Of a DNA stretch of 64,000 bases, positions 2,382-54,686 are shown in pieces. The notes beneath the pieces were generated by a model, which saw only the letters and a program-made list of their open reading frames with translations, did no database searches and was not told the DNA's origin. The stretch's first letter is position 1. Each line of letters starts with the position of its first letter. The position numbers and the translations under genes are program-made. Source of the stretch: Variovorax sp. V93 (lineage in GTDB: Bacteria; Pseudomonadota; Gammaproteobacteria; Burkholderiales; Burkholderiaceae_C); contig NZ_AP028669.1 of assembly GCF_041154485.1 (NCBI RefSeq), positions 3,844,001-3,908,000 of the forward strand, given 5' to 3'.

Positions 2382-2400
2382 AATAAGAATAATTCTTATT
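2382..2400 (+). promoter_or_regulatory. Fur box upstream of the first ECF sigma gene
   Basis: AATAAGAATAATTCTTATT is a perfect 9-1-9 palindrome in an AT-rich island of a GC-rich region. It has the size and geometry of a canonical 19-bp Fur operator. It ends 82 nt before the sigma-factor ATG at 2483 and would overlap its promoter, so iron-loaded Fur would repress the sigma gene. Confidence 0.85.
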
Positions 2401-2482
2401 CAATCATCCGAACCACCCGCACCACGCGCCGGTGGCCGGCCCAGGGAAACCAACACGTTGATGCTTGCGAGAAGGCGATCGG

Positions 2483-3100
2483 ATGCGCGACCTCGTCCAG
2501 GAACTGGTAGCTCACTATGCGGACTTGCGCCGGCAACTGACGCGCGACCTGCGCGACCCGCACTATGCGGCGGACATCGCGCAATCCAGCTTCGAGCGCG
2601 TGTATGCGCACGCGCTCAAGATGAAGGGCGGCGACATCCGCATCGACGCGGCCCCTGAAAGCACCCAGGGCTCCGGCATCGAATCGCCACGCGCCTTGCT
2701 CTTTCGCGTGGCGCGCAACCTGTGCGTGGACGATGCGCGCCGCCGCAAGGTGGCACAGGACTGGGTCGGCACGCATTTCAACTCGGGCTCGCGCCAGGTG
2801 GTGCCGTCCTGCGAATACATCGCCGCGCAGCAGCAGGTGCTGGCGCGCGTGGTCGAGACGCTTGAAAAGCTGCCGCCCCGGCGGCGCGAAGTGTTCCTGC
2901 TGTTCCGGGCCTACGGACACACGCGCGCCGAAATCGCCCAGCAGCTGAAGATCACTGAAATGGCGGTCGCCAAGCACCTGCTGCGCGCTGCCATCGACTG
3001 CTCGCGCGTCTTCGCCCGGCTGCGTTCGGAGCTGATCGAGCAGCCGGTCATCTCGACGCGCCCGGGCTTCGACGCAAGCTTCGCCGAAGACTTCGCCTGA
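2483..3100 (+). CDS. ECF sigma factor (FecI-type), iron-starvation regulator
   Basis: A 205-residue protein with sigma region 2 (HYAADIAQSSFERVYAHA ... RVARNLCVDDARRR) and region 4 (LEKLPPRRREVFLLF, then the HTH around HTRAEIAQQLKITEMAVAKHL). The start is the ATG at 2483, which has GAGAAGG 8 nt upstream; an in-frame TTG at 2465 is less likely. A Fur box precedes the gene and a DUF4880-like mini-gene follows 15 nt after the stop. It should direct RNA polymerase to siderophore genes when iron is low. Whether it or the second sigma factor at 40263-40808 reads the TGAAC-N16-CGTC sites cannot be told from sequence. Confidence 0.88.
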   Translation: MRDLVQELVAHYADLRRQLTRDLRDPHYAADIAQSSFERVYAHALKMKGGDIRIDAAPESTQGSGIESPRALLFRVARNLCVDDARRRKVAQDWVGTHFNSGSRQVVPSCEYIAAQQQVLARVVETLEKLPPRRREVFLLFRAYGHTRAEIAQQLKITEMAVAKHLLRAAIDCSRVFARLRSELIEQPVISTRPGFDASFAEDFA

Positions 3101-3115
3101 CGGGCCGGCCGCATC

Positions 3116-3331
3116 GTGGCAAGCGTCCCGAACGAGAAACTCATCGAGCGTGCCCTCGCGCTGATCGTGGAGAGCGAGATCGCTGCGCACGACGCCGCCA
3201 TGGCGGCCCGCCTGGCGCTTGCGCGGTGGCGCAGCCGGTCGGCGGAGCATGCGGCCGCGGCCCAGGAAGCGCGCCGCCGCTGGGATGCCCTCGGCGGCAT
3301 GGCTGCGCAGTTGCGCGGGCTGCGGAAGTAG
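3116..3331 (+). CDS. Small FecR N-terminal (DUF4880)-like protein
   Basis: A 71-residue soluble protein starting at a GTG 15 nt after the sigma gene. It has the DUF4880-type outline, an N-terminal helix (ERALALIVESE), then W-RS-R-S-EH-A-A and a late W-D-ALG motif. This is the segment that FecR anti-sigma factors use to contact their sigma factor. It has no transmembrane helix and no periplasmic FecR domain, so it cannot receive a receptor signal the usual way. I infer a cytosolic modulator of the adjacent ECF sigma factor. Similarity is by eye and is the weakest of the three such proteins in the locus (others at 3349-3585 and 39963-40166). Confidence 0.6.
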   Translation: MASVPNEKLIERALALIVESEIAAHDAAMAARLALARWRSRSAEHAAAAQEARRRWDALGGMAAQLRGLRK

Positions 3332-3348
3332 CGTGGGCGCCCTTGCCC

Positions 3349-3585
3349 TCACTGCAGGCGCCCCTCTTCGTGGCACGCCTGTTCCAGCACGGGCTTGATC
3401 AGCGCGGCCCCGGTCAGTGCCCAGAGGGTGAGCACGTCGTTCAGCGCGCCGATGTTCCCGGGGTCCACGCCGAGCCAGCGGATGAGCTCTTCGGCGCGCT
3501 CCGGCGAGGGCGCATCGTGCAGCGTGCGAAAGAGCGTCCACGCGGCGTCGAAAGCGGGATCGTCGGGCACACGGTCACGCATCAT
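3349..3585 (-). CDS. Small DUF4880-like protein coupled to the exporter gene
   Basis: A 78-residue protein. Its ATG overlaps the stop of the ABC exporter gene in an ATGA junction, so the two are translationally coupled. The pattern AFDAAWTLF - RWLGVDP - A - LWALTGAALI matches the FecR N-terminal DUF4880 outline (Trp-rich helices around a W-L-x-x-D-P turn). It has no membrane helix or signal peptide. It converges with the plus-strand DUF4880-like gene, leaving 17 nt between them. Its pairing with an exporter rather than a sigma gene is unusual. It may still bind a sigma factor, or may be an adaptor of the biosynthetic machinery. Confidence 0.6.
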   Translation of the reverse strand: MMRDRVPDDPAFDAAWTLFRTLHDAPSPERAEELIRWLGVDPGNIGALNDVLTLWALTGAALIKPVLEQACHEEGRLQ

Positions 3586-5273
3586 GCAGCCAGGCTTTCC
3601 AGCGGGACGTACGCCTTGTCCTCCTCGATCTTTCCGGCGCGCATCGTGACCACGCGGTCGGCCAGGTGGAAGTACCTGTCGTCGTGCGAGATCACCACCA
3701 GCAGATGCCCCTTGGCGCGCAGTTCGGGCAAGAGCTCCGTGTAGAACAGATGCCGGAAGGCCGGATCCTGGTCGGCGGCCCATTCGTCGAACACCAGCAC
3801 CGGGCGGCCTTCCAGGTATGCATGCACCAGCGCCAGCCGCTTGCGCTGCCCGGTCGAAAGATCGGTGGTGGTGAAGGCGCCGTCCTTCACGCTCACCTTG
3901 TGCGCGATTTCCAGGCGTTCCAGGTAGGGCAGCGCCGTCTGCGGCAGCGTGGCCGTGCCCGCGCCCTCTTCGCCGGCCGCCAGATCCTCGAACAGGTAGA
4001 AGTCCGAGAACACCGTCGTGAACAGCTGCCTGTAGTCGTCGCTCCCTTCCGGCGTCACCACGCCGCCGTCGAGCAGCACTTCGCCGCCGTGCGGTGCATA
4101 GAGGCCGAGCAGCAGCTTGATCAGCGTCGTCTTGCCGGAGCCGTTGTCGCCCACGATGAACACCATCTCGCCGGGCCGCAGCGACAGGTCGATCGGCCCG
4201 AGCGTGAAAGCCTCGCCGCCCTCGGGCGCATCGAAGCCGTAGCGCACGCCGCGCATGGCGATCTCGCGGTTCAGCATCACGCCGTTGGAGGCGCGCTCCA
4301 GGTGCAGGTGCGGCTCCGGCGTTGCAAAGCGCGCCGACAGGTCGGCGATGCGCCGGAACGCGATCTTGGCCCGGCCCACGCCCGGCAGCGCGCCCGCGAT
4401 CTGGTCCACCGGTCCCTTCAGGAACAGCATCACCAGCACGAAGCCGCTCAGCACCGCGGGCTCGGTCGGCCGGAACGCGGCCCAGCCGAGGATCAGCGCG
4501 ATCAGCAGGAAGAACAGCGCCGAGCCGAAGGCCGTCGCCATCACGTAGGTGTTGATGGCGCGTCCGTTCACGGTGCGGATGTTGTCCACGATGCGCTCGA
4601 TCTGCCCGCCGAACATCCGCGTGCGGCGCGCGCGGTGCATGCGGAATTCCTTCGCGCCTTCGCTGATCGCGCGGTAGGTCTTGTGCAGCTGCTCCTCGCA
4701 TTCGCGCGCCTTCCAGAAACCCGCCTCGGCGCGCACCTGCGCGCGCGTCTGGATGGTCGCGCCGATCGCGAGCGCCACCACCAGCAGGCAGAACAGCGGC
4801 AGCGACAGGTACGCGAGGTACGCCAGGCAGCCCAGCGCAATCGCGAACGCGATGAGCGTGGACGACAGCACGAAGGCCACGTCGCTGATCATGTCCACGT
4901 CCTGCGACAGCACCGGCATCAGCCGATGCGTGCGGTAGCGCTCCAGCGCATCGATGGGCGCCGAGAGAATCTTCTGCGCGAGGCTCTTGCGCACCTGTGC
5001 CACCAGCCGCTGGCCGACGAAGTTGGTCGACACGTCCGAGGCCATGCGCCCCAGCAGCGCCACCGCGCACAGCCCGACGAAGGTCAGCAGCAGCCCGCCC
5101 GCCATGCCGCCCTCTCGGTTGAGCACCTGGTTGATGGTGCCCAGCAGCGCGACGGTGGCCGCACCCGCGCTGATGCCGGTGACCGCGGACAGGACAATCC
5201 ATGGAAAAAAAGGCTTGAGCAGGCGCCCGAGCTCGGAGGTGTGGCCACGGGGGGCCGTGGTGGTCGGTGTCAT
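3582..5273 (-). CDS. Cyclic-peptide/siderophore export ABC transporter (PvdE/SyrD type)
   Basis: A 563-residue half-transporter with a fused ATPase. The first ~330 residues hold about six transmembrane helices (for example FFPWIVLSAVTGISAGAA and SALFFLLIALILGWAAF). The ATPase has Walker A GDNGSGKTT near residue 374, signature LSTGQRKRLAL, Walker B VLVFDEW and H-loop VVISHDD. Family members such as PvdE move NRPS siderophores or precursors across the inner membrane. The start at 5273 is chosen because the upstream extension is Arg-rich and non-conserved in character. A TGAAC-N16-CGTC site lies 96 nt upstream on the same strand, and the small gene 3349-3585 is coupled downstream. Confidence 0.85.
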   Translation of the reverse strand: MTPTTTAPRGHTSELGRLLKPFFPWIVLSAVTGISAGAATVALLGTINQVLNREGGMAGGLLLTFVGLCAVALLGRMASDVSTNFVGQRLVAQVRKSLAQKILSAPIDALERYRTHRLMPVLSQDVDMISDVAFVLSSTLIAFAIALGCLAYLAYLSLPLFCLLVVALAIGATIQTRAQVRAEAGFWKARECEEQLHKTYRAISEGAKEFRMHRARRTRMFGGQIERIVDNIRTVNGRAINTYVMATAFGSALFFLLIALILGWAAFRPTEPAVLSGFVLVMLFLKGPVDQIAGALPGVGRAKIAFRRIADLSARFATPEPHLHLERASNGVMLNREIAMRGVRYGFDAPEGGEAFTLGPIDLSLRPGEMVFIVGDNGSGKTTLIKLLLGLYAPHGGEVLLDGGVVTPEGSDDYRQLFTTVFSDFYLFEDLAAGEEGAGTATLPQTALPYLERLEIAHKVSVKDGAFTTTDLSTGQRKRLALVHAYLEGRPVLVFDEWAADQDPAFRHLFYTELLPELRAKGHLLVVISHDDRYFHLADRVVTMRAGKIEEDKAYVPLESLAA

Positions 5274-5368
5274 GCAAAGGCTCTTTCCGCCCACCCGGGG
5301 CAAAACGGCTTGAAAACGGCCATGCCCCGTCGACATCGCCCGGGCGGCTGCACGCCGCTTACTGCATA

Positions 5369-5393
5369 GACGGCTGGGTCCCGGCAATGTTCA
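5369..5393 (-). promoter_or_regulatory. Candidate ECF sigma promoter for the exporter
   Basis: On the minus strand TGAAC (5393-5389) is followed after exactly 16 nt by CGTC (5372-5369), then TAT. The same spacing and both boxes occur at 6250-6274 and 39941-39965, each upstream of a siderophore operon. The layout resembles the PvdS/OrbS iron-starvation promoters (-35 TAAAT-like, N16, -10 CGT). Confidence 0.65.
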
Positions 5394-5406: not shown

Positions 5407-6252
5407 ATGAACACCACCGCCGCCAAACCGTCTTCAAGGGATGCATTCCCCGCACCTCTTGCAGGCCGCCTCGTGATCGCGCTGCTGGAACCCCTGTTCC
5501 CGGGCGCACTCGCCGTGCATGCCGAACGGCTGCAGTGCGCGGACGCGGTACCGGCCGACGCGCTGTGCGTGGCCGAGCTGGCGCAGTCGCCTTCGCTCCT
5601 GGCCGACGTGCTGCGCCTTCATGCCCGCGCACGTGGCGCGGCCGGCGCGCGCGACCTGCGGCCGGTCGCCTCGGCGTGGAGCCTGGACTACCTTTCCGCG
5701 CTGCTGCCGCCCGTGGTGGCGGCCGCCAGCGTGCTGCAGCATGTGTTTCCGGTTTCGGCGGAGCACATCTGGGTGCGGCTCGACGACAAGGGCGCACCCT
5801 CGAGCTTTCATGTGCTGCATCCGGGCGATGCGCGGCGCGGCGCGGACACCGCGCAGCGCTATGCGCCGCTGCTGTGGCAGCACCTGCAACCGCTTTTTTC
5901 CGCCTTGTGCAGCCTCACGCGGCTTGCGCCCAAGATCCTGTGGGGCAACACCGCGCGCCACCTCGAACCGATCTTCGACATGGCGCTGGCCGCGACCGGC
6001 GGTGCAGCCCACATCGCGCACGACCGCGATCGCCTCCTGCACCACCCCGCCTGGCCGGACGAGGCCCGGCCGGTCAACCCGCTGCACGCCCGCCGCCGCG
6101 AGGTACGGCCGGTCGACGCCGGCCAGGGCCGGCCGGTCAAGCTGCACCGCCAGTGCTGCCTCTACTACCTGCTTCCGTGCGAGGACTACTGCGGCGCCTG
6201 CCCGCTCGCGCCGCAGCACCGCAAGAGCGCCGGCGAAATCCTGCAGCCGTGA
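5407..6252 (+). CDS. FhuF-like siderophore-iron reductase [2Fe-2S]
   Basis: A 281-residue cytosolic protein. The C-terminus carries the diagnostic FhuF iron-sulfur motif C-C-x10-C-x2-C (CCLYYLLPCEDYCGAC), and the body has the family feature LAPKILWGNTAR. FhuF-type proteins use the [2Fe-2S] cluster to reduce hydroxamate-bound ferric iron so that the metal is released inside the cell. It is divergent from the exporter gene with 133 nt between them. No clear Fur box or TGAAC-N16-CGTC site faces it, so its own promoter remains unidentified. Confidence 0.85.
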   Translation: MNTTAAKPSSRDAFPAPLAGRLVIALLEPLFPGALAVHAERLQCADAVPADALCVAELAQSPSLLADVLRLHARARGAAGARDLRPVASAWSLDYLSALLPPVVAAASVLQHVFPVSAEHIWVRLDDKGAPSSFHVLHPGDARRGADTAQRYAPLLWQHLQPLFSALCSLTRLAPKILWGNTARHLEPIFDMALAATGGAAHIAHDRDRLLHHPAWPDEARPVNPLHARRREVRPVDAGQGRPVKLHRQCCLYYLLPCEDYCGACPLAPQHRKSAGEILQP

Positions 6253-6274: not shown

Positions 6275-6346
6275 TTCTCCTGAAGGCCCCACGCCCGCTT
6301 GTTCCCAAGCCAACTCCAACGCCGATCCATCCTTCACGCCACACCC

Positions 6347-7192
6347 ATGTCCCAGGCAAAGCTCGTCTACATCCTGTCCTTGAGAAACGCGGCCGCCGAC
6401 AAGGCCGGCCAGTGCATCGACTTCAAGGGCACGCAGCGCTACATGGCGTCCCCGCTCGAATACCTGGCCAAGGCACTGGACGAAAGCTCGCTGGGAGCGG
6501 CCTATTCGCTCGAAGGCATCGTCTACGACGACGACGAAGGCTCGCCGCGGGACCGCGCGGCGCTGCAGGACTACGGCTTCTCCTGCCAGCCCGGCCGCCA
6601 GTGGATCTTTCCGGGCGACCTGAAGGCGCAGGGCAAGCTGCTCAACGGCATGCTCCACGCGGTGCCGTCCGAGTACCGGCGGCTTCCGCTCGACGCGAAA
6701 GAGCGACCCGCCGCCAAGAGCGCCTTCGAGCGCCGCCTGCTGGACAAGCTGCTCACGCTGCAGGCCGACATCGTCGTGCTCGACGGGCTCCTGGTCATCC
6801 TGGACGAACTCGTGCGCCCGGGTGCGCCCTTTCACCGCAGGATCGTCAACATCCACCCCGGCATCACGCGCATCGAGTCGCCCTACGAGCGCCGCGGCGC
6901 CTGCGCCACGCTCGATGCGCTGCACGGCGCCAAGGGCCGCAAGGTCGTGAACTGGCAGACGATGGAAAGCGTCCCCGCGCCGCTGCTCCTGAAGACCGGC
7001 GCCTCGCTGCACTACGTGGACAACGGCATCGACTCCGGCGAGGTCATCCACGACGTGCTCGGCACGCACATCGACCCCACGGACTCGATCCTCGAGCTGC
7101 GCTGGAACAACTTCAACCACAGCCTCTTTCCGGCACTCCACCAGGGCCTGGCCCTGCTCGCGAGCCACCGGTCCACCGAAGGAACCCCATGA
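6347..7192 (+). CDS. N5-hydroxyornithine formyltransferase (PvdF-like)
   Basis: A 281-residue member of the formyl-tetrahydrofolate-dependent transferase fold. It carries NIHPGITRIESPYERRG, the HPG(I) catalytic segment typical of the family, and VLDGLLVILDELV before it. PvdF-type enzymes transfer a formyl group to N5-hydroxyornithine, producing a hydroxamate iron ligand. The ATG at 6347 is preferred over an upstream in-frame ATG at 6299, because the latter adds a non-conserved stretch and would place the start closer to the promoter at 6250-6274. Its stop overlaps the next gene in an ATGA junction, and an acyltransferase and an ornithine N5-monooxygenase follow. Confidence 0.85.
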   Translation: MSQAKLVYILSLRNAAADKAGQCIDFKGTQRYMASPLEYLAKALDESSLGAAYSLEGIVYDDDEGSPRDRAALQDYGFSCQPGRQWIFPGDLKAQGKLLNGMLHAVPSEYRRLPLDAKERPAAKSAFERRLLDKLLTLQADIVVLDGLLVILDELVRPGAPFHRRIVNIHPGITRIESPYERRGACATLDALHGAKGRKVVNWQTMESVPAPLLLKTGASLHYVDNGIDSGEVIHDVLGTHIDPTDSILELRWNNFNHSLFPALHQGLALLASHRSTEGTP

Positions 7193-8229
7193 CCCTCACC
7201 TCCTACGCCGACGGCACGCCGCACGACATCACCCTGGACGGCGAGATGCTCGCCGTGCGCAGCCGCCAGGGCGGCAGCCGCTCGCTCTGGAAGCTCGCAG
7301 CCGGCGGGGCCGATGCCGCGCTCCAATGGGTCGACGGCAGTGCGGCCTCCACCCCTCACCTGCTCGCGGCGCTGGAAGCCGCCTTCGAGTACCGCCCCGC
7401 GCACAAGAGCCTCGCGGTGGCGGCGCCCGCGCCGGCCGAGGAGCTGACCCACACCGGCGTCCTGCTGGCGTCGCCGGACGGCGGCGTGCGCGCCTTTCGC
7501 GACATGCTCTGGCAGCAGCCGCGCCTGTGGCTTCCCACCGTGCATGCCCCGATGGCGCAGCGCTATGCGCTCACCAACGGCAAGGTGCATCCGCTGCGCA
7601 CGCCCAAGCCGCGCGGCGTGCTCTACCAGCGCTTCATTCCGTGGCTCGGCAAGACCTTCTCGTTTCGCAGCATCGACCTCGAGCGCGACCTGGACATCTT
7701 CAACCGCTGGATGAACGACCCCGACGTGGCTGAGATCTGGGACGAGGAAGGCGACCTGGACAAGCACCGCGCCTACCTCTCGGGCATCGAACGCGACCCG
7801 CACATGTACTCGATGATCGCGAGCTTCGACGGCGAGCCCTTTGCCTACTTCGAGATGTACTGGGCCAAGGAAAGCCGCATCGCGCCCTTCTACGACGTGC
7901 AGGACTACGACCGCGGCTGGCACGTGCTGGTCGGCGAGCCGTCGTTCCGCGGCAAGGCCTGTGCCACCGCGTGGCTCACCTCCATCTCGCACTACATCTT
8001 CCTGTGCGACCCGCGCACCCAGCGCGCCGTGGGCGAGCCGCGCATCGACCACGTGCAGCAGATCCGCAACCTCGACAAGTCGGGCTACGCCAAGGTGAAG
8101 GAGTTCGACCTGCCGCACAAGCGCGCACAGCTCGTGATGATGCTGCGCGAACGCTACTTCATCGACGGCCTCTGGCTGCCGCGCAGCGACGCGCCGGCGG
8201 CAGCAGCCGCGTCCGCCACGCCCGTTTAA
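7189..8229 (+). CDS. GNAT-family siderophore acyltransferase (IucB/AlcB-like)
   Basis: A 346-residue protein coupled by an ATGA overlap to the formyltransferase gene. Residues ~160-335 form an AlcB/IucB-type N-acyltransferase domain (LDIFNRWMNDPDVAEIW; FAYFEMYWAKE; GWHVLVGEPSFRGK; C-terminal KVKEFDLPHKRAQLVMM). The N-terminal ~150 residues match the extra domain often seen in hydroxamate siderophore acetyltransferases. The usual reaction is acetyl (or other acyl) transfer from CoA to the N-hydroxyl amine of ornithine or lysine. Having both this and a formyltransferase implies two kinds of hydroxamate or an alternative acyl end-group. The acyl donor cannot be read from sequence. Confidence 0.82.
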   Translation: MTLTSYADGTPHDITLDGEMLAVRSRQGGSRSLWKLAAGGADAALQWVDGSAASTPHLLAALEAAFEYRPAHKSLAVAAPAPAEELTHTGVLLASPDGGVRAFRDMLWQQPRLWLPTVHAPMAQRYALTNGKVHPLRTPKPRGVLYQRFIPWLGKTFSFRSIDLERDLDIFNRWMNDPDVAEIWDEEGDLDKHRAYLSGIERDPHMYSMIASFDGEPFAYFEMYWAKESRIAPFYDVQDYDRGWHVLVGEPSFRGKACATAWLTSISHYIFLCDPRTQRAVGEPRIDHVQQIRNLDKSGYAKVKEFDLPHKRAQLVMMLRERYFIDGLWLPRSDAPAAAAASATPV

Positions 8230-8264: not shown

Positions 8265-9596
8265 ATGGTCATTCACGACGTCATCGGCATCGGCTTCGGC
8301 CCCTCGAACATCGCGCTGGCGATCGCGCTCGACGAGAAGCGGCGCGAGGGACGCCGGCTCGACGCAATGTTCATCGAGAAGCAGCCCACCTTCGCCTGGC
8401 ACAAGGACATGATGCTGGAGCATGCGCACATGCAGATCTCCTTCCTGAAGGACCTGGCCACGCTGCGCAACCCGACCAGCCGCTTCACCTTCATCAACTA
8501 CCTGCACGAGAAAAGGCGCCTGCAGGACTTCATCAACCTGAAGACCTTCTTCCCGAGCCGCCACGAGTTCAACGACTACCTGGCCTGGGCCGCCGCGCAG
8601 TTCGAGGATGCCTGCGTCTACGGCGAGGAAGTGTTCGAGGTGCTGCCCGAGCGCGAGGCCCACGGCGGCGACGTGACGCTGCTGCGCGTGCGCTCGCGCG
8701 ACCGCACGGGACACGTGAGCGAGCGCCTCGCGCGCAACCTCGTGGTGAGCATCGGCGGCATGCCCAACATTCCGGACTGCTTCCGGGCGCTGCGCAGCGA
8801 CCCGCGCGTGTTCCATTCGAGCAGCTACCTGCAGGGCATCGCCGCGCAGGACGGCGCGCAAAGAATCGCCATCGTCGGCGCCGGCCAGAGCGCCGCGGAA
8901 ATCTTCATGGACCTGCAGGGCCGCCCCCATGCGCCGCAGGTCGACCTCGTCATGCGGGCCCGCTCCATCCGCCCCTCGGACGACAGCCCCTTCGTGAACG
9001 AGGTGTTCAACGCCGAGTTCACCGACTACATGTACAGCCGGCCCGACGACGAGCGCGCCGCCCTGCTCGAGGAATTCGGCCACACCAACTACGCAGTGGC
9101 CGACCTGGAACTGATCCAGCAGATCTTCAAGATGTTCTACCAGCAGAAGGTGCGCGGCGAAAACCGCATGCGCTTCCTGCGCCGGCACGACATCCACGCC
9201 GCCCACGCCACGGCCGAGGGCATCCACCTGACCATGTGCGACCGGAACACCGGCCGCGAAAGCACCTCGCGCTACGACGCCGTGGTGCTCGCCACCGGCT
9301 ACGCACGCGAGCAGCACAAGGAACTGCTGACCTCCCTCGCGCCGTACCTGGATGGTTTCTCGGTGGACCGCCACTACCGCGTGCGCAGCACCGGTGACTT
9401 CCGCCCCGCCATCTTCCTGCAGGGCGCCTGCGAGTCCTCGCACGGCCTGAGCGACACGCTGCTGTCGGTGACCTCGGTGCGTACGGGGGAGATCGGCAGC
9501 GCGCTGCTGAAGGCCATTCCGGCGATGCCGGGCACGGCGGGCGCGGCCAGCGCCGCCAACGCCGGCCGGAGCGAGCGCCAGGCCGTCCGCGTCTAG
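8265..9596 (+). CDS. L-ornithine N5-monooxygenase (PvdA/SidA family)
   Basis: A 443-residue flavin N-hydroxylase. It has the FAD motif GIGFGPSNIALAIA at the N-terminus, the NADPH-binding GAGQSAAEIF near residue 205, and the late ATGY motif (VLATGYAREQ). PvdA-type enzymes hydroxylate the side-chain amine of free ornithine with NADPH and O2, the first committed step to the hydroxamate. The start ATG at 8265 has AAAAGGA 8 nt upstream. It is the third gene of the formyltransferase operon, 35 nt after the acyltransferase. A short GC-rich region and the TonB receptor follow. Confidence 0.93.
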   Translation: MVIHDVIGIGFGPSNIALAIALDEKRREGRRLDAMFIEKQPTFAWHKDMMLEHAHMQISFLKDLATLRNPTSRFTFINYLHEKRRLQDFINLKTFFPSRHEFNDYLAWAAAQFEDACVYGEEVFEVLPEREAHGGDVTLLRVRSRDRTGHVSERLARNLVVSIGGMPNIPDCFRALRSDPRVFHSSSYLQGIAAQDGAQRIAIVGAGQSAAEIFMDLQGRPHAPQVDLVMRARSIRPSDDSPFVNEVFNAEFTDYMYSRPDDERAALLEEFGHTNYAVADLELIQQIFKMFYQQKVRGENRMRFLRRHDIHAAHATAEGIHLTMCDRNTGRESTSRYDAVVLATGYAREQHKELLTSLAPYLDGFSVDRHYRVRSTGDFRPAIFLQGACESSHGLSDTLLSVTSVRTGEIGSALLKAIPAMPGTAGAASAANAGRSERQAVRV

Positions 9597-11947: not shown

Positions 11948-11966
11948 GCCGCGCAGCGGCCTCCAA

Positions 11967-12011: not shown

Positions 12012-12024
12012 GGTTCCTTCCGGC

Positions 12025-23966: not shown

Positions 23967-27303
<3,337 letters not shown>

Positions 27304-27307
<4 letters not shown>

Positions 27308-31866: not shown

Positions 31867-34800
31867 CAGTTGACTCTCTCTGCCGCTTTGCGGCGTTGAA
31901 GCATGGCGGCGCGCTGGCGCAGGGCCCGGTCGTCGCCGGCCGCGGCCGCGGTGGCCGATGCGGCGGCGCGCGCGGGGGCCTGCTCCAGCCACTGGACCAA
32001 GGATTGGACGGTGGGGTACTTGAAGAGATTGACCACGGGGATGGCGGTGTGCAGCCGGTCTTCCAGCAGCCGGTGCGCGCGGATCAGCAGCAGCGAGTGG
32101 CCGCCCAGGTCGAAGAAGTTGTCGTGCAAGCCGACCTGCGCGACCTGCAGCACCTCGGACCACACCGCGGCCACCGTCTGCGCAACATGGCCTTGCGGCG
32201 CCTCGTAGGCCTGGCCGCCGGCAATAGCCGGTTCGGGCAGTGCCTTGCGGTCCACCTTGCCGTTGGCGTTCAGCGGCAATGCATCGAGCACCGCGAAGGC
32301 GCGCGGGACCATGTAGTCGGGCAGCGCCTGCGCAAGCCGGTCTTTCAGCACCGCGGTGTCGATGGCCTCGCCCGCATGCGGCGCGAGGTAGGCAACCAGC
32401 CGCGCACCGGCGGGGCCTTCCTTGGCGATTACAACGGCTTCGCGCACGGCGGGCTGTGCAAGCAGCTGCGCCTCGATCTCGCCGAGCTCGATGCGAAAGC
32501 CCCGGATCTTCACCTGGTGGTCGATGCGGCCCAGATACTCCAGCTGCCCTTCGCCGTTCCAGCGCACGAGGTCGCCGGTGCGGTAGAGCCGCCCGCCGCC
32601 GGCGCCGTCGAACGGATCGGCCACGAAGCGCTCGGCACTCAGGCCGGCCCGCTTCAGGTAGCCGCGCGCGAGGCTGATGCCGCCCAGGTACAGCTCGCCC
32701 GCCACGCCTTGCGGCACCGGATTGAGATCGGCATCCAGCACGTGGGTGCTGGTGTGGCTGATCGGCTTGCCGATGGGCACCTGGCTCCGGCCGTCGTTGC
32801 GGCAGGCCCAGTGCGTCACGTGGATCGTGGTCTCGGTGGGGCCGTAGAGGTTCTGCAGGCCCGCGCCGTGCAGGCGCACGAGCGTTTCCTTCTGGGTCTC
32901 GGCCGGCATCGCTTCCCCGCCGCAGATGATGTGGCGCAGGCGCGTGCTGGTCTCGATGCCCTCGTGCGCAAGAAAGGCCTGCAGCATCGAGGGCACGAAG
33001 TTGAGCGTGGTGACCTGGTGGCGCTGGATCAGTTCGACCAGTCGCGCAGGGTCGCGGTGATCGCCGGGGTTGGCCACCACCAGCCTTGCGCCCGCGGTCA
33101 TCGGCCAGAACAGCTCCCACACGGACACGTCGAAACCGAACGGCGCCTTGTGCAGCACGGTGTCGGCGCGCGTGAGCTTGTAGATGCCCTGCATCCACGC
33201 CATGCAGCTGTGCAGCGCGCTGTGGCGGATGGCCGCCCCCTTGGGCTTTCCGGTGGAGCCCGAGGTGTAGATCACGTAGGCGAGGTTCTCGATGTGCAGG
33301 CCGACCTGCGGATCGCTCTCGGGCTCGGCGCTGAAATCGGCGGCGTCCACCTCCAGCACCGTGAGTCCACGACGGTCGGGCACGCAATCGGCGAGGCTGC
33401 TCTGCGTGAGCAGCAGGCCGATGCCGCTGTCCTGCACCATGTAGGCCAGGCGCTCTGCGGGGTATTCGGGGTCCAGCGGCACATAGGCGCCGCCCGCCTT
33501 CAGCACGCCCAGGATGGCGACGACCATTTCGATTGAGCGCTCCATCGCGATGCCCACGAGCACCTCGGGCTTCACGCCCAGCGCGATCAGCCGGTGCGCC
33601 AGCCGGTTGGCGCGGCGGTTCAGTTCCGCGAAGCCGAGCGACTCGTCGGCGTAGAGCAGCGCGGTGGCATCAGCTTGCGTGCGGGCCTGCCGCTCGATCA
33701 TGCGGTGCACGGGCTCGGGCTGCGGCTCGCGATGCTCATTCACGCCCCACTGCGCGAGCCGTGCCTGCTCCGGCGCGCCGAGCAGCGCGATGTCGCCGAC
33801 GGGTTGATCAGGACGATCGGCCAGCGCCTGCAGGACCGCGACGTAGTGGCCGGCCATGCGCGCAATGGTGTCGGGCTCGAACAGCTCGGCCGCGTAGATC
33901 ACGGCGAGCGAGAGCTGGCCGCTGGGCCGCTCGCGCGCCTCGAGCGTGAGCTCGAACTGCGCCGCGAGATCGGGCAGCGCATGCTCTTGCGCGGCGATGC
34001 CGGGCAACTGGCCGAGCGCGCGGTAGTCCTCGAACAGGTGGTTGAACATCACCTGGAACAGCGGCGTGCGGCTCAGGCTGCGCTCGGGCTGCAGCATCTG
34101 CACGAGCTGCTCGAAGGGCAGATCCTGGTGCGCCTGCGCGCCCAGCACTGCATCGCGCGCCTGCGCGAGCACGCTCGATGCGCCGAGGCGGCCATGGATC
34201 GGATTGCGCAGCACCAGCGTGTTGACGAACAGGCCGACCACGCCTTCGGATTCCACGCGGTTGCGGTTGGCAATCGGCGCGCCGATGCGGATTTCTTCCT
34301 GCCCCGTGTAGCGGTGCAGCAGCGCCTGGAAGCCCGCCAGCAACACCATGAAGAGCGTGGCGTTGCCGCCATCCGCGGTCTTGCGCAACTGCGCGAGCAG
34401 GCTCGCCGGGAGTTCGAAGGCATGGCGCGCGGCGCTGTAGCCGGCCTGCGGCTTGCGCGGGTGGTCGGTGCGCAGGTCGAGCACGGCGTGCGTGTCGCCG
34501 AGTTGCGCGCGCCACCAGGCCAGCTGCCGCTCGCCCTCGCCTGCCGCCAGCCACTCGCGCTGCCAGAGCGCGTAGTCGGCGTACTGGATTCGCGGCGCGG
34601 GCACGCGCACGGCATTGCCCTTCAGGTGCGCTGCGTAGCCTGCGGCCAGTTCGTCGATCAGCAACTGCATCGAGGCGCCGTCGGACACGATGTGATGCAT
34701 CACCACGGCGAGCACATGCACCTCATCGGCGATGCGGATCAACGCGGCGCGCAGCAGCGGGCCTTGCGTGAGGTCGAAGGGCTGGGCCTTGAGGCGCCGC

Positions 34801-37181
34801 GTGGCTTCTTCCAGTTGCGCATCGGCTTCGGCCTCGGGGCCGCGCAGGTCGACCAGCGACAGCGGCACCGAGCCGGCCGGCTTGATCCATTGCTCCACGC
34901 TGCCATCGACGCCGGCACTGAACACCGTGCGCAGCGATTCATGGCGCGCCACGAGATCATCAAAGGCCGGCTGCAGCGCATCGACCCGCAAGGCGCCAGT
35001 GAGGCGCAGCGCGCCGCTCACGTGGTAGGCCGGACTCCCGGGATCGATCTGCCAGAGGAACCATTGGCGCTCCTGCGCGTGCGAGAGCGGCAACGGCAAC
35101 AGCCGCCGCTCTGCGGAGAGAACGGCGATGGGCGCGGGCTGCGGGTGCACGCCCTGCAGCTGCAGTTCGCGGATGGCCGCCGCGCAATCGCGAAGGCGCG
35201 GCTGCTCGAAGAGCCTGCGCGCGGGAAAGCCGATCTGCCAGCGCGCGCCGATGCGCGCAGCCGCCTGCGTGGCGGTGAGGGAACTACCGCCGCAGTTGAA
35301 GAAGTGGGCATCGCGGCCGAGCGCACGGTCGTCGCCGTACCTGCAGACCTCGCGCCAGATGGCGGCGACGGCCTGCTCGACCTCGTCGAGCGGCGCCTCG
35401 GCAACGGCCTCGACCGGGCCTCCGCGCACAAAGGCGCCGTGCTGGTAGACGGCATACGCGTCGGCACTGCCGTCGAGCCAGCCCGCACGGCAGGCACTGC
35501 GCTGCAGCTTGCCGCTGGTGGTCTTGGGCATGCCCCCCGGATTGAGCAACAGCACGGCCGACAGCGTCTCGCCGAACACTTCGCCCACGGTGGCACTCAG
35601 CGCATCGACCAGCGCCGCGGCCGGCACCAGCTTCTGCATGCTGCGCGACACTTCGGCGGCCACGCCGATGCCCTCGCCTCCCGGCCCTTGCGTGGCGAAG
35701 ACCGCGACGCGGCCCTTGCGCACGGCATCGACCTCGGCCTCGATGAGCCGCTCGATGTCCTGCGGGTAGATGTTGTGGCCGCGGACGATGATCAGGTCCT
35801 TGATGCGGCCGGTGACGTAGAGCTGGCCCTCGTGCATGAAGCCGAGGTCGCCAGTGCGCAGCCAGCGCTGGCCGTCCCGCTCGACGAAGGTCTCGCGCGT
35901 CTCGCGCTCCTTGCCCCAGTAGCCGTGGCCGATGCTCGGGCCGCAGGTCCAGATCTCGCCGATCTTTCCGGGGGCCGCGGCCGAGAGCGATTCGGTATCG
36001 ACGATCTCGAGGCGATGGCCGGGCGCGACATCGCCGCAGCCGACCAGCGTCGCGCCCTCGTCCGCCGGGGTTCCTGCGCCGCTGGCGAGGCCGGCGGCGG
36101 AAAACGTGGGCGCAACCAGTCCGCCGCCCCGGCGGCCGCCGGTGACGAAGAGCGTCGCTTCGGCGAGGCCGTAGCAGGGATAGACGGCCGCCGGGTCGAA
36201 GCCCGCGGGTGCGAAGCGCGAGATGAACTCGATTTCGGTATCGGCGCGCACGGGTTCGGCGCCGGTGTAGGCCACGCGCCAGCTCGACAGGTCCAGCCGG
36301 GCCAGTTGCGCGTCCTTCACGCGCTCCAGGCACAGGCGGTAGGCAAAGTCGGGGCCGCCGCTGAGCGTCGCGCGATGGCGCGAGATCAGTTCGAGCCAGC
36401 GCACCGGACGCTCCAGGAAGTAACCCGGAGAGCTGAGCACCAGCGGAATGCCGCTGTAGAGCGGCTGCAACAGTCCGCCGATCAGACCCATGTCGTGATA
36501 GAGAGGCGCCCAGGAGACGAAGCTGTCGCCCGGCCCGACACCCATGCTGCGCTGGATCGCCTCCTCATTGGCCATCAGGTTGCCGTGCGTCACGATCACG
36601 CCCTTGGGCGCCGAGGTGGAGCCCGAGGTGTATTGCAGGAAGGCGACGTCGCCGCCGGCCGGCTCGAAGGGGGCCCATCCGTCGGCCAGCGCGATGTCCA
36701 CGGTGTCGACGGCGACGATGTCCGCATCGCCGAACTGGCGCGAGCCCGCGCTCGTTGCATTCATCGCGCGTGCCATGGCGTCGGAGGTCAGCACGCAGCG
36801 CGCCTGCGAATCGGCGGCGATGCCGCTCAGCCGTGCGAGGTGCTGCGGGCGCGCCGATTCCGGCGGGAACACCGGCACCGCGATCACGCCCGCGTAGAAG
36901 CAGGCCAGCATGCCCACCGCGTAGTGGTCGCCGTTGTCCAGCATGACCAGGGCGCGCTCGCCCCTGGCGAACTGCTGCTGCAGCCGGGCCGCAAGTGCGC
37001 GCACGCGGCGCTCGAAGGCGCCGTAGCTGATCGGCTCCGCGTGGTCCTCGCCATCCGCCGCGCTCACAACGGTGAGCCAGACGTCGTCGTGCCGCGTGTC
37101 GGCCAGTGTGCGGAGGTGCGCCACGAAGTTCTTCGGGCGCGGCGAGATCGGCGCCTGCAGCGCCTGCGTTTTCTTTTCCAT
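31866..37181 (-). CDS. Loading protein FAAL-ACP-C-A-T
   Basis: A 1771-residue initiator of the lipopeptide. Residues ~15-585 are a fatty-acyl-AMP ligase ([53 protein letters not shown]). An ACP follows ([10 protein letters not shown] near 630), then C (HHIVSDG near 830), A (FDVSVWE near 1350; YGPTETTIH) and T (FFDLGGHSL near 1690). FAAL activates a free fatty acid as acyl-AMP and loads the ACP without CoA, and the C domain N-acylates the first residue. The A pocket read by eye is DVWNIGLIHK, a mix of the Ser and Thr codes, so Thr, Ser or a close relative is likely but not settled. The ATG at 37181 is 20 nt after the hydroxylase stop. Confidence 0.9.
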
Positions 37182-37201: not shown

Positions 37202-38194
37202 CTAGAAGCGGCCCAGATTGCCGTACGGCTCGGCCATGGCCACGATCACCTTGCGCGGCCCCTTGAACGGCGAGCGCGCATGCGCCACCAGCATGTTGTC
37301 GAGCATCAGCACGTCGCCCTCCTCCCACGGGAAGGCCACCGTCTCCGCATCGAGCACGGCGCGCACCTCTGCGAAGATCTCATCGCTGATGGTCGAGCCG
37401 TCGGCAAAGAAGGTGTTCCGCGGCACGTTCTCGATGCCGTAGATTTCTTCGAGCACTTCGCGCTCCTCGGCCTCGCGCGCAGAGATGTGGAACAGGTGGG
37501 CCTGGTTGAACCACACCTGCTCGCCGGTCACGGGATGCGTCTCCACAGCCTGGCAAAGCTGCCGGGTGCGCAGGCCGCCGTCGTCCTTCCATTCCCACGA
37601 GATGCCCGAGCGCTCGCAGAAGGCCTGGACTTCGGCGCGGCTTTCGGTGTTGAACACTTGCTGCCATGGCACGTCCATCTCGCCGAAGTTGCGCACGTAC
37701 AGGATGCCGGGCTCGAAGCGCTTGCGGATGTGCCCGGGCATGCGGCGGTAGACGGCGCGGCTGTCGGCAATGGGTGTCTCGCCGCCCTCGGGCGAGGCGG
37801 TCACGCAGTGGAACCAGATCTTCATCGGCCACTCGCGCGTGTAGGCCTGCTCGTTGTGCAGCGGGATGCTCTGGTGCGCCGGGTATTCGGTCGAGGTGTA
37901 GACACCTGCGCCGGTGGAGGCCGACACCGCGGAGCGCGGCGTGGAGGCGAACTCGTACTTCAGCAGCGGATGGCCGAACGACGAGGCGAACTGCTGGAAA
38001 GTTTCCACCGCCGGCACCGAGAAGCCGCGCAGCAGCACGCCGCCGGCGACAAGGAGCGACTCCTCGATCTGCGGACGCAGGCGTTGCACCGCCGAGAGCA
38101 GGTCTTCGCCGGCATGCGCGGGTGTCATGAGGACCGGGAGGTCGGAGCCGGCGGGCGCCTTGCTGCGCACGAACCGTGTGAGCGTTTCATTCAT
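37202..38194 (-). CDS. TauD/SyrP-like Fe(II)/2-oxoglutarate aspartyl beta-hydroxylase
   Basis: A 330-residue TauD-superfamily dioxygenase. The metal-binding pair H-x-E is in PLHNEQAY near residue 119 and the distal His is in [17 protein letters not shown] near 313; the following Arg would bind 2-oxoglutarate. In syringomycin and siderophore pathways this family hydroxylates the beta-carbon of aspartate while it is held on the T domain. The terminal module activates Asp, so the natural substrate here is Asp-S-T of 12025-16098. Beta-hydroxyaspartate is an alpha-hydroxy-carboxylate-type iron ligand and makes ferric complexes photoreactive. The gene overlaps the PPTase stop by ATGA and directly precedes the FAAL-NRPS gene. 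Confidence 0.85.
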
Positions 38195-38880
38195 GTCGAT
38201 TCCTTGGCACGCCACGCGAGCGCGGCGGCATAGCCCGTGGGCGCATCGAGCGCCACGGCTTGAAGACCGGACCATTCGGCAACGGCGCATTCGAGGACGT
38301 ATCGCCCGTTCGCACCGGAGTGGATGCCGATGGATTGAAGGTGCTCGGCCACGCCGACGCCGACGGCCTTCAGCACCGCCTCCTTGCCCACCCAGCGGCT
38401 GTAGAGGGCCTGCAGTGGATCGCCGGCTTCCTGCAGCGCGCGGCGTTCGCTGCCGGTGAAGGCGAGCGAAGCGACGGCCTCGGCGTCGACGTCGCTCCTG
38501 CAGGCCTCGATGTCGATGCCCACCGCGCTGACCACGCGGGGATCGGCGAGTGCGATGAGTGCATGAGCGCCCGAGTGCGAGACGTTGAAGAGCGTCGCAT
38601 CGCCACCGGCCACGTCGAGGAAGGGCTTGCGATGCAGGCCCGCCGCGAACCGCACGTCGGCCGGCTGGCAGCCCACGCGCCGCGCAAGCAGGCCGCGAAG
38701 GGCCGCGCGCGTGGCCGTGAAGCGCACGCGGTCGGCGGTGCGCGCATATCTGTCGGCCTGCGCGCGCTCGGCGAGTGCCAGCAGCCGGCGCTCGGCCGAG
38801 ACATCGGCGTCCAGGTCGAAGTCGAGGCGGTAGACCTCGATGCCTGCGGGAAGCGGGTCAGGCCAGGACACGGGACGCAT
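38191..38880 (-). CDS. Sfp-type 4'-phosphopantetheinyl transferase
   Basis: A 229-residue pseudo-dimeric Sfp-type enzyme. It has the three family motifs: HRKPFL with FNVSHSGAHALIAL, the Mg-binding GIDIEAC, and WVGKEAVLKAVG. It transfers phosphopantetheine from CoA to the serine of the T/ACP domains (seven in this assembly line), making them active. Its ATG at 38880 lies 23 nt inside the thioesterase gene and its stop overlaps the hydroxylase ATG, so it is translated as part of the operon. Being dedicated to the cluster, it lets the locus work independently of the primary PPTase. Confidence 0.9.
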   Translation of the reverse strand: MRPVSWPDPLPAGIEVYRLDFDLDADVSAERRLLALAERAQADRYARTADRVRFTATRAALRGLLARRVGCQPADVRFAAGLHRKPFLDVAGGDATLFNVSHSGAHALIALADPRVVSAVGIDIEACRSDVDAEAVASLAFTGSERRALQEAGDPLQALYSRWVGKEAVLKAVGVGVAEHLQSIGIHSGANGRYVLECAVAEWSGLQAVALDAPTGYAAALAWRAKEST

Positions 38881-39595
38881 GGCGCGCTCCTGCAACGGCC
38901 TGGCCGAGTCGCTCGGTGAGCGCGGCCAGGAATGCTGTTTCGCGCTGCCGGATGAAGAAGTGGCCGCCGTCGAACCAATCGAGCGTGAAGACACCCCCCG
39001 CCTCGGCCGACCATGCATGGACGGAAGCCGCGTCGATGTCGTCCTCGCGCCCGGCAAAGACATGCACGGGCATGGGCAGCGGCGCATCTTCGCGGTATCG
39101 GAAGCTCTCGCACACGCGGTAGTCGGCGCCGAGCATGTCGAGCGTGATGCGCATGAGCTCCGCGCTCGCGAACACTTCCTCGGGCGTTCCGCCCTGCCTG
39201 CGCAACTCGGCCGTGAGCGATGCGTCGTCGGTCTTGCCTGCGAAGCGCGCAGGATCGCGCCGCGAAGGCGCACAGCTGCCGGAAGCCATCAGCGCAAGCG
39301 GCAATGGGCGCCCCAACGATTGCAGCCGGCGGGTGATGCCGTAGGCCAGCAACGATCCCATGCTGTGGCCGAAGATCGCGAACTCGCCGCGCAGCGCCTC
39401 GGCCTGCTCTACGCAGACCTGCGCAACGAGCTCATCGAAGTTCCGGACCAGGCGCTCGGACAGCCGGCCCCCACGGCCGGGCAACTCCACGGGCACGATG
39501 CGGAGCCAGCGCGGCAGCAGCCGCCGCCAGCGCAGGTACATCGTTGCGCTGGCGCCCGCACAAGGCAGGCACAGCAGCGAGACGCTCGCGTCCAC
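38858..39595 (-). CDS. Type II thioesterase (GrsT-like)
   Basis: A ~245-residue alpha/beta hydrolase. It starts LLCLPCAGASA, carries the nucleophile elbow GHSMGSLLAYG, and has the catalytic His in GGHFFI. This is the editing type II TE that removes stalled or wrong acyl groups from carrier domains. The start is GTG at 39595, or alternatively TTG at 39604, whose codon overlaps the MbtH stop in a TTGA junction; no ATG is available. It overlaps the PPTase gene by 23 nt. Confidence 0.88.
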   Translation of the reverse strand: MDASVSLLCLPCAGASATMYLRWRRLLPRWLRIVPVELPGRGGRLSERLVRNFDELVAQVCVEQAEALRGEFAIFGHSMGSLLAYGITRRLQSLGRPLPLALMASGSCAPSRRDPARFAGKTDDASLTAELRRQGGTPEEVFASAELMRITLDMLGADYRVCESFRYREDAPLPMPVHVFAGREDDIDAASVHAWSAEAGGVFTLDWFDGGHFFIRQRETAFLAALTERLGQAVAGARHASRVLA

Positions 39596-39600
39596 GCGCG

Positions 39601-39861
39601 TCAACCCGCCGCGGCTTGGGCTGCGATTCCTCCGGTCGCCGGGTTCTGCTGCGCCATCCACTCGCGCAGCGAACGCGGACGCATGTCGGTCCAGTTCTGC
39701 TCGACGTGGGCAAGCACGGTCTTCTTGTCGCCCTTGACGCCTTCTACCGCCGTCCAGCCCTTCGGCACGGCCTTCCAGTGGGGCCAGATGGAATACTGGT
39801 CTTCGTGGTTGACCAGAACGATGAAGGTCTCGTCTTCGCGATCGAAGCAACTCGTCGACAT
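39601..39861 (-). CDS. MbtH-like protein
   Basis: An 86-residue protein with the MbtH signature: NHEDQYSIWP, P-x-GW (VPKGWTAVEG), and WTDMRPRSLREWM. MbtH proteins bind NRPS adenylation domains and are often needed for their solubility and activity. First gene of the nine-gene NRPS/PKS operon. AAGGA lies 10 nt upstream of the ATG, and a TGAAC-N16-CGTC promoter-like element lies 80 nt upstream. Confidence 0.93.
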   Translation of the reverse strand: MSTSCFDREDETFIVLVNHEDQYSIWPHWKAVPKGWTAVEGVKGDKKTVLAHVEQNWTDMRPRSLREWMAQQNPATGGIAAQAAAG

Positions 39862-39940
39862 GGGTGCGTCCTTATGCGGTTGAACAGGATGAAAGGCGAG
39901 TCGACGGCCGGCTGGCCATCTCGTCGCTCCTGATCAACAA

Positions 39941-39965
39941 GACGTTTCAGGACACGATCTGTTCA
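39941..39965 (-). promoter_or_regulatory. Candidate ECF sigma promoter of the NRPS/PKS operon
   Basis: On the minus strand TGAAC (39965-39961), 16 nt, CGTC (39944-39941), then TTG. It is positioned 80 nt before mbtH and just overlaps the end of the DUF4880-like gene. It shares TGAACAGAT and ACGTCTT with the formyltransferase promoter at 6250-6274. It would drive a transcript of about 28 kb. Confidence 0.72.
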
Positions 39966-40166
39966 CTCCGCAGCGGCCGGCGGCACCAGTCCGGCCAGCA
40001 GCCACAGCCGGGCGGCTCTGTCGTAGGCCTTGCGGTGCCGGGGATCGGCAAGAAGCCAGGCCGTCATCTCGGCCCGCGCGCGGGCATCGAAGCTCTCGTG
40101 GTCGTACTCGCGCTGCACCCACTGCCATGCGGTGCTCCAGATGGGGTCGTCCTGTTCTTGTGTCAT
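39963..40166 (-). CDS. Small DUF4880-like (truncated FecR) protein
   Basis: A 67-residue protein between the second ECF sigma gene (96 nt upstream) and the NRPS operon promoter. It fits the DUF4880 outline well: AWQWVQREY, then MTAWLLADPRHRKAYDRAARLWLLAGL (Trp helices around W-L-x-x-D-P). Full FecR proteins have this domain followed by a membrane helix and a periplasmic domain; here both are absent. It is probably a sigma modulator acting in the cytoplasm. It is the best DUF4880 match of the three small proteins. Confidence 0.7.
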   Translation of the reverse strand: MTQEQDDPIWSTAWQWVQREYDHESFDARARAEMTAWLLADPRHRKAYDRAARLWLLAGLVPPAAAE

Positions 40167-40262
40167 GCGTGAAGGGTGTGAGGCATCACGCGACAGTACA
40201 TCGGCACGTCGCGCGGGGGCTAAGGCTTTTACCCTACACCAAGCCCACGGGCGTGCAAAGAC

Positions 40263-40808
40263 TCAGTCGTCCTCGAGCAGGCGGCCGCATTCCTTGATCG
40301 CCTGCGCCGCCTCGGCAATCAGGCCGTTCACCAGCCCAAGCGCGCATCCCAGGCGCTGCGCGATGTCGCGCTGGGTGAGCCCTTCGAGCCGGTAGAGCTC
40401 GAACACCAGGCGCGTGCGCGCAGGGAGCCCGGCGAGCACCTTGTCGATGGCCTGGATCGCCTGGCGTTCGCGCATCAGGCGATCGGGGGTGGGCGCACCG
40501 GCGACATCGAGCACTTCGACATCGACATCGAAGGTGCGGTAGTTGGCCTCGACGGTGTGGCGCCGGCAGCAGTCGAGCGCGACATTGCGCACGACCTGGC
40601 AGCAATAGCCGATCGGCCGATCGGCCTTGCGTACGCAAGGGCCGTCGGTGATCTTGAGGTAGGCGTCCTGCACGACATCGTCGGCCAGCTCCGCGGTGCG
40701 AACGATTCTTCGCGCCACGCGCAGGAGCTGAGCACGATTTGCGATGAAGACCTCCGCGAGCGTGGGCTCCGAAAGGTGCAGCGCGCTGTCGATCGGCTCT
40801 CGCATCAT
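40263..40808 (-). CDS. ECF sigma factor (PvdS/OrbS-like)
   Basis: A 181-residue sigma factor. Region 2 is around AELADDVVQDAYLKITDG and VVRNVALDCCRRHTVE. Region 4 is around LAGLPARTRLVFELYRLEGLTQRDIAQRLGCALGLVNGLI. The region between, with YRTFDVDVEVLDVAGAPTPDR, resembles iron-starvation sigma factors such as PvdS, OrbS and MbaS that control siderophore NRPS operons. It sits directly upstream of the NRPS operon with a Fur box 87 nt before its ATG. It is the stronger candidate for recognising the TGAAC-N16-CGTC sites, because PvdS-like factors read CGT-type -10 boxes. The start may be either of two adjacent ATGs. Confidence 0.9.
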   Translation of the reverse strand: MMREPIDSALHLSEPTLAEVFIANRAQLLRVARRIVRTAELADDVVQDAYLKITDGPCVRKADRPIGYCCQVVRNVALDCCRRHTVEANYRTFDVDVEVLDVAGAPTPDRLMRERQAIQAIDKVLAGLPARTRLVFELYRLEGLTQRDIAQRLGCALGLVNGLIAEAAQAIKECGRLLEDD

Positions 40809-41112
40809 GCGAGGCGGGGCACGGATCGCCCAAGAGAACGTCGGCGAGGATGCAGACAGGTGAACATGAAGCCGCTACTCCTGAAGTATTCAATGCAAAT
40901 GAGAACTATTACTACTTGTGGGTACAAAAAAACCCGATATCCCGCCCTCTTCGTGTCCCATGTCCGTTAGACGTTTGAGCACGCAAAAGCGAGACAGGCG
41001 AGTGCCGGAAATCGGCCGGTCCGCTCATCGATGGTGGAGCGCCTGCATGACGGCAGGATGATCGGGTCCACCGCGCAACTAGAATTCCGCCCCTTTCCCC
41101 GATCCCTGCCCC
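40809..41112. other. Intergenic region with divergent promoters
   Basis: 304 nt between the second sigma gene (minus) and the ParB-like gene (plus). It contains one AT-rich island with the Fur box at 40895-40913. I see no ORF with coding character and no hairpin. The ParB-like promoter must lie in 40920-41110 but no clear -35/-10 pair stands out. Confidence 0.6.
40895..40913 (-). promoter_or_regulatory. Fur box upstream of the second ECF sigma gene
   Basis: GCAAATGAGAACTATTACT on the plus strand agrees with the classical 19-bp Fur consensus at 13 of 19 positions. It sits in an AT-rich patch 87 nt upstream of the sigma-factor ATG. With the box at 2382-2400, both regulators of the locus are under predicted Fur control. 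Confidence 0.78.
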
Positions 41113-54680: not shown

Positions 54681-54686
54681 GGGCCC

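Follow-up and report, generated by a model that had tools for sequence, protein, structure and literature searches.

Which siderophore does Variovorax sp. V93 make from the hybrid assembly line encoded on its contig NZ_AP028669.1? We analysed a stretch of 64,000 nucleotides (positions 3,844,001 to 3,908,000, hereafter the window), in which a siderophore locus combining a nonribosomal peptide synthetase (NRPS) with a polyketide synthase (PKS) occupies positions 2382–40913. Coding frames were called over the window, and the proteins were scanned against Pfam and NCBIfam. A preliminary description of this DNA had read a complete locus, started by a fatty acyl-adenylate ligase (FAAL) and bounded by two Fur boxes. 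We find every listed part between the two Fur-like boxes, and alignment reproduces all five adenylation (A) domain codes that had been read by eye (DVWNIGLIHK, DVWHVSLIDK, DGEGSGGVTK, DFWNIGMVHK and DLTKVGHVGK). The same description had likened the locus to the variochelin cluster, and this likeness is not borne out. Instead, we assign the locus to the vacidobactin/acidobactin type with a probability of roughly 85%. It is thus a siderophore cluster of an already known kind, very probably of the vacidobactin type.

The assembly line matches that of acidobactin

For comparison, we drew 50 related loci from a genome collection and examined longer stretches around seven of them. Paracidovorax citrulli DSM 17060, described as the acidobactin source (PMC4598715), has a cluster with the same domain string protein by protein and the same codes in all five A domains. 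The window holds the order that marks the acidobactin and vacidobactin lines, FAAL-A-PKS-Ser-Orn(E)-Thr-Asp-TE, with shared codes. On the basis of this common order and code set, the product most likely belongs to the acidobactin/vacidobactin type and not to variochelin.

The genes around the assembly line agree with this assignment. A neighbouring N-acetyl- and N-formyltransferase together with an aspartate β-hydroxylase is a feature named for acidobactin and vacidobactin (PMC4598715), and the window has an N-acyltransferase, a formyltransferase and an aspartate β-hydroxylase in such a neighbourhood. P. citrulli carries homologues of sigA, MbtH, the TauD-family hydroxylase (78%), the TonB receptor, the acyltransferase, the formyltransferase (70%), FhuF, the exporter, the N-oxygenase and the phosphopantetheinyl transferase (PPTase). 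V. paradoxus S110, a member of the same genus as our strain, makes vacidobactins, introduced in PMC4598715 as "methylmalonate-incorporating acidobactins". Rediscovery can therefore be avoided if a polar compound of the vacidobactin type is looked for first, rather than a variochelin lipopeptide.

First residue, extender unit and aspartate hydroxylation

The chain predicted earlier stands in most of its parts, namely Ser, an Orn-type residue with an E domain, Thr, hydroxylated Asp and the KS-AT-KR set after module 1. Its first residue, X, had been left incomplete, and is most likely ornithine. The code of this module, DVWNIGLIHK, recurs in the del-type line of genome G327, where it occupies the Orn position; the residue order of that line was taken from PMC13122642. 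In addition, position 2 has been corrected to ornithine (PMC4598715). We infer that the numbering of that paper counts the FAAL as position 1 and omits the ketide, so that the DVWNIGLIHK domain is position 2 and the Asp domain position 6. The shared code and the corrected position together lead us to ornithine.

The nearest textbook code would give threonine, and DVWNIGLIHK differs at just three positions from the Thr code of the same line, DFWNIGMVHK. If the first A domain activated threonine, the siderophore would contain one Orn and two bidentate ligands. We consider this unlikely, given the Orn position of the same code in the del-type line, the published correction and the fact that DVWNIGLIHK replaces the Asp ligand in sister clusters. 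With ornithine at X, the product most likely contains two Orn hydroxamates and one β-hydroxyaspartate, the three bidentate ligands expected of a hexadentate siderophore. More generally, the comparison points to ornithine for DVWNIGLIHK in siderophore lines of the Comamonadaceae.

The second Orn-type module reads DGEGSGGVTK. The V. boronicumulans line ends with the close code DGECTGGITK twice, and the printed variochelin structure holds two acylated hydroxyornithines (PMC10999976). The last position of the del-type line reads DGEAVGGVTK.

AT motifs of the ASH type go with methylmalonate and those of the AFH type with malonate. The window reads IASHS, as does V. boronicumulans; the del-type line reads VASHS and the acidobactin strain VAMHS. 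The printed products of variochelin (PMC10999976) and delftibactin (PMC11472818) contain units derived from methylmalonate. Since the window motif resembles those of these two lines and differs from that of the acidobactin strain, it points to methylmalonate, and so to vacidobactin rather than acidobactin, in a motif argument built on three reference lines.

Hydroxylation of aspartate appears to follow the delftibactin scheme. The window combines a standalone DelD-like enzyme with the motif GGDSI on the Asp carrier, a motif reported in interaction with the standalone hydroxylase DelD (PMC11472818). GGDSI is also found on the Asp carriers of P. citrulli, V. beijingensis T529, EL159, Rhizobacter and the del-type line. 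The Asp carrier of V. boronicumulans, which is served by a fused TauD domain, reads GGHSL. The window hydroxylase shares 81% identity with its counterpart in the del-type genome and 78% with the homologue in the acidobactin cluster.

Several points weigh against our assignment. Identity to the acidobactin line is only about 58% (terminal protein) to 65% (PKS), and falls to 48% for FhuF and 41% for the PPTase; for the type II thioesterase (TE), the second sigma factor and the small open reading frame (ORF), no homologue above our thresholds was found in the P. citrulli stretch. AT motifs and A codes are predictors, and unforeseen substitutions were noted in variobactin (PMC4598715). The code DGEGSGGVTK could in principle specify arginine, because the Arg code of the del-type line, DGEYHGAVTK, is also of the DGE..G.VTK kind, though the window code is nearer to the two Orn codes. 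The del-type genome was assigned by module order only, and its Ser module is lost in a contig gap. For the ketide prediction, PMC13122642 prints 'Mal', although the delftibactin unit is 2-methylated.

Variochelin and lipopeptide readings

Could the product nevertheless be a variochelin-type lipohexapeptide? The reference for this reading is V. boronicumulans NBRC 103145, which we take to be the variochelin type strain BAM-48. Its cluster shares with the window the FAAL, the first-module PKS with the same AT motif, and Asp, Ser and Orn-type modules, as well as homologous genes for sigma factor, MbtH, PPTase, type II TE, N-oxygenase, acyltransferase, exporter and FhuF. The modules, however, differ in order and number. 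The V. boronicumulans line starts with DAEDLGAITK, carries TauD behind the PKS in the same protein, and continues with Asp, Ser-E, DVQFLAQVVK, DGECTGGITK and DGECTGGITK-TE. We find none of these variochelin markers in the window, that is, no TauD fused behind the PKS, no Pro-type module and no pair of terminal Orn-type modules. The 60 kb of the V. boronicumulans cluster that we compared yielded no formyltransferase. The variochelin structure, as printed in PMC10999976, contains Arg plus methylmalonate, one β-hydroxyaspartate, Ser, Pro and two acetyl-hydroxyornithines, and it fits the V. boronicumulans line, not the window. Module order and the first code thus rule the variochelin assignment out, leaving it a negligible probability. 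A related FAAL-PKS-TauD cluster of variochelin-like layout (L019), whose first code reads DIWHVSLIEK, is found on a sequence labelled as plasmid pVarWS11_2 of Variovorax sp. WS11; given this location, variochelin-like clusters may move between strains.

The vacidobactin scaffold could also carry a fatty acid loaded by the FAAL, which would make the main product an N-acylated (C12–C14) lipopeptide. The best structural matches of the first assembly-line domain include a PDB entry named Fatty Acyl-Adenylate Ligase as well as FadD32, FadD23 and FadD28; PDB matches ranked above the FAAL-named ones (7r7 and 3kxw entries) were deposited under synthase names. Delftibactins are reported both untailed (A) and with C12/C14 tails (C–F) (PMC11472818), variochelins keep C10–C14 tails (PMC10999976), and the scan of the cluster ORFs gave no match to an acylase family. 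On the other hand, acidobactins and vacidobactins are described as eluting at 2–9% acetonitrile, that is, as very polar compounds (PMC4598715), so that in this account the isolated compounds are not long-chain lipopeptides. In our tree, the window FAAL falls with that of the acidobactin strain and its kin (support 93/93, short of the starred level), and the variochelin-type and del-type FAALs lie separately; a FAAL from Rhizobacter, whose cluster has the module type of the window, is also placed outside this group. Two genes of the penicillin amidase family, which count against a retained tail, lie elsewhere in the genome. We looked at them as candidates for a tail-removing acylase; both are outside the window, and no link to the cluster was shown. 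The four kinds of FAAL (window, acidobactin, variochelin-type and del-type) are 60–67% alike, and neither this similarity nor the tree allows the acyl chain length to be read from the sequence. Because the published relatives are polar, the label 'lipopeptide' given in the preliminary description is unproven, and we hold a tailed main product to be doubtful next to a polar compound of the vacidobactin type.

Proposed biosynthesis

From the observed domain order, codes, gene set and homology, we propose the following substrates, chemistry, regulation and product. Iron starvation would lift Fur off the two boxes, and the sigma factors of the extracytoplasmic function (ECF) family would turn the locus on. 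The FAAL would put an acyl starter onto the first ACP, after which module 1 would add ornithine. The PKS would add and ketoreduce methylmalonate, so that a 4,7-diamino-3-hydroxy-2-methylheptanoate unit is formed. Ser, D-Orn (through the E domain), Thr and Asp would follow, and the standalone hydroxylase would act on Asp bound to the GGDSI carrier. The TE may free the chain in linear form or as a depsipeptide. The N-oxygenase and the acetyl- and formyltransferases would convert both Orn side chains into hydroxamates, which, together with β-hydroxyaspartate, would form a hexadentate Fe(III) ligand. Export, uptake and iron release would fall to the ABC exporter, the TonB receptor and the FhuF reductase, respectively.

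Possible exchange of the terminal C-A pair in sister clusters

PKS identity to the window is 99% in V. beijingensis T529, 96% in V. beijingensis 502 and 95% in V. paradoxus NBRC 15149. In G014, a genome marked as the same species, the coordinates of the terminal module equal those in T529. Among 101 Variovorax genomes, 49 have a PKS match at E <= 1e-250 and 22 a match to the terminal protein at E <= 1e-200. The latter comprise seven genomes at 74% identity or more, 12 with full-length matches at 43–45%, and three with partial or lower matches (G061, G012 and G089). The standalone hydroxylase is present at 89% or more in all seven high-identity genomes, and G061 has one at 78%. No hydroxylase match at E <= 1e-60 was found in any of the 12 genomes with the diverged terminal protein.

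We then compared ten Variovorax genomes with the diverged terminal protein. Together with V. paradoxus DS1452, they make up 11 of the 12 diverged clusters (all but G071), and in each of the 11 the line ends in DVWN(I/L)GLIHK-PCP-TE. Against the terminal protein of the window, these 11 Orn-ended proteins are 32–37% identical in C and 38–40% in A, and 64–72% in PCP and 62–66% in TE. The corresponding values for the Asp-ended terminal protein of P. citrulli are 57, 59, 64 and 60%. Since C and A diverge strongly while PCP and TE do not, the C-A pair alone seems to have been exchanged, as judged from these alignments. The end type, Asp or Orn, changes at least three times on the FAAL tree (18 rows) and two times on the PKS tree (16 rows; G102 and G091 were dropped for lack of a long enough match).

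These patterns suggest that in this siderophore family the last chelating group is swapped as a recombination cassette of the terminal C-A pair, at least two to three times, while the PCP-TE and the rest of the line are kept, and that in Variovorax the standalone hydroxylase is gained or lost with it; we give this model about even odds. If it is true, exchange of the cassette switches a photoreactive β-hydroxyaspartate siderophore to a trihydroxamate. Strict coupling to the hydroxylase is opposed by two cases: the line of P. anthurii has an Orn-type end code but retains a TauD gene (59%), and the terminal carrier of G102 still reads GGDSI. The Orn-ended type is not named among the listed literature matches on Variovorax NRPS and hydroxamates, an absence of little weight.

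AT motifs ending in AFHS occur in eight of the ten diverged clusters and in DS1452; G102 yielded no PKS, and in G092 the pattern was unmatched. Asp versus Orn end modules and ASH versus AFH or AMH motifs form a natural series that could serve to probe the effect of ligand choice on iron photoreduction.

Three clusters have unusual layouts. P. anthurii (L064-L065) has a shortened line, FAAL-A, PKS, Ser-type and Orn-type-TE, plus the TauD gene, with no Asp A domain in the fetched stretch. In G102 (L077-L078), module 1 is followed by an NRPS module, DGEDHGTVTK, and the 38 kb examined shows no PKS; this layout is the converse of the 'PKS insertion' of the preliminary description. In G091 (L089-L090), the PKS frame is split into two open frames, and this copy may be broken or mis-assembled.

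Regulatory sites and gene content

Both Fur-like boxes were scored against a Fur consensus. The box at the low-coordinate end is a perfect 19-bp palindrome matching at 13 of 19 positions, a score reached somewhere in 2 of 20 simulated windows. The other box matches at 12 of 19, by score alone no better than chance. In V. beijingensis T529 and V. paradoxus DS1452, each box recurs at the same position ahead of the corresponding sigma gene.

The interval between sigA and MbtH contains the pattern TAAAA-N-CGT, possibly that of an iron-starvation-sigma promoter. Of six relatives checked, T529 shows the pattern in the equivalent position and the V. boronicumulans cluster carries a single copy in another part of the interval; the remaining four show no match between sigA and MbtH. 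A sigma-dependent promoter at this site is therefore no more than suggested by the pattern. The receptor gene and the terminal NRPS gene converge on a gap at 11948–12024, where an inverted repeat with runs of A and T is probably a two-way terminator.

Table 1. Features of the siderophore locus, in window coordinates.
Feature	Position	Strand	Evidence or remark
Fur-like box, perfect palindrome	2382..2400	.	5' of ECF sigma gene
ECF sigma factor, second regulator	2465..3100	+	PF08281
Small conserved ORF, no Pfam match	3349..3570	-	homologues beside or near exporter in T529, DS1452, EL159 and V. boronicumulans cluster
Cyclic-peptide-type ABC exporter	3582..5387	-	TIGR01194, 625 bits
FhuF siderophore-iron reductase	5407..6252	+	TIGR03951
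Formyltransferase (by context, hydroxyornithine formyltransferase)	6299..7192	+	PF00551; 70% to acidobactin-cluster homologue
GNAT N-acyltransferase (by context, hydroxyornithine acetyltransferase)	7189..8229	+	PF13523
Orn/Lys N-oxygenase (ornithine N5-monooxygenase)	8265..9596	+	PF13434, 8e-125
TonB-dependent siderophore receptor	9686..11947	+	TIGR01783
NRPS C-A(Asp, DLTKVGHVGK)-PCP(GGDSI)-TE	12025..16098	-	domain scan, code alignment
NRPS C-A(Orn-type, DGEGSGGVTK)-PCP-E-C-A(Thr, DFWNIGMVHK)-PCP	16095..23969	-	domain scan, code alignment
NRPS C-A(Ser, DVWHVSLIDK)-PCP	23966..27307	-	domain scan, code alignment
PKS KS-AT(IASHS, methylmalonyl-like)-KR-ACP	27304..31866	-	domain scan; motif read in translation and near-identical loci
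FAAL-ACP-C-A(DVWNIGLIHK, probably Orn)-PCP	31866..37181	-	domain scan, code alignment
Standalone aspartate β-hydroxylase, TauD family, DelD-like	37202..38194	-	PF02668
PPTase	38191..38880	-	PF01648
Type II thioesterase	38873..39597	-	PF00975
MbtH-like protein	39601..39861	-	PF03621
67-aa DUF4880 (FecR N-terminal) stub	39963..40166	-	24.4 bits, just below cut-off 25
Possible iron-starvation-sigma promoter, TAAAA-N-CGT	40204..40231	-	suggestive only
ECF sigma factor, first regulator	40263..40808	-	family scans
Fur-like box	40895..40913	.	5' of first ECF sigma gene

Outside the locus, we notice a region at 52977–63879 that is likely a mobile island. An integrase gene (52977–54251) adjoins a Mur-ligase-family gene there, followed by a stretch of lower GC with a minimum of 50% at 60–62 kb. 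This stretch holds an AbiJ_NTD4/DUF7014 ORF (60317–61246), possibly a phage-defence gene, and a DUF5906 ORF (62869–63879).

Comparison with known systems

The acidobactin cluster of P. citrulli resembles the locus in domain order, the five A codes, the standalone hydroxylase, both transferases, the receptor, the reductase and the exporter. It differs in the AT motif, VAMH against IASH in the window, and in the location of the N-oxygenase and PPTase genes, which lie elsewhere; identity to the window genes ranges from 41 to 82% by gene. Vacidobactin of V. paradoxus S110, known here from its description (PMC4598715), comes from the same genus and joins the acidobactin scaffold with methylmalonate, as the AT motif of the window suggests.

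The variochelin cluster of V. boronicumulans is alike in its FAAL-A-PKS start, its AT motif and the presence of one Asp and two Orn-type modules, but its first code is DAEDLGAITK, at the position printed as Arg in the structure, its TauD is fused, and its order is Asp-Ser-Pro-Orn-Orn. As far as described in PMC11472818 and PMC13122642, delftibactin and delftichelin of Delftia share the FAAL/CAL start, the PKS after the first module, the standalone DelD with GGDSI, and N-acyl or N-formyl hydroxyornithine. Their line is longer, in contrast, placing Asp immediately behind the ketide and adding Thr, Gly, Arg or Pro residues.

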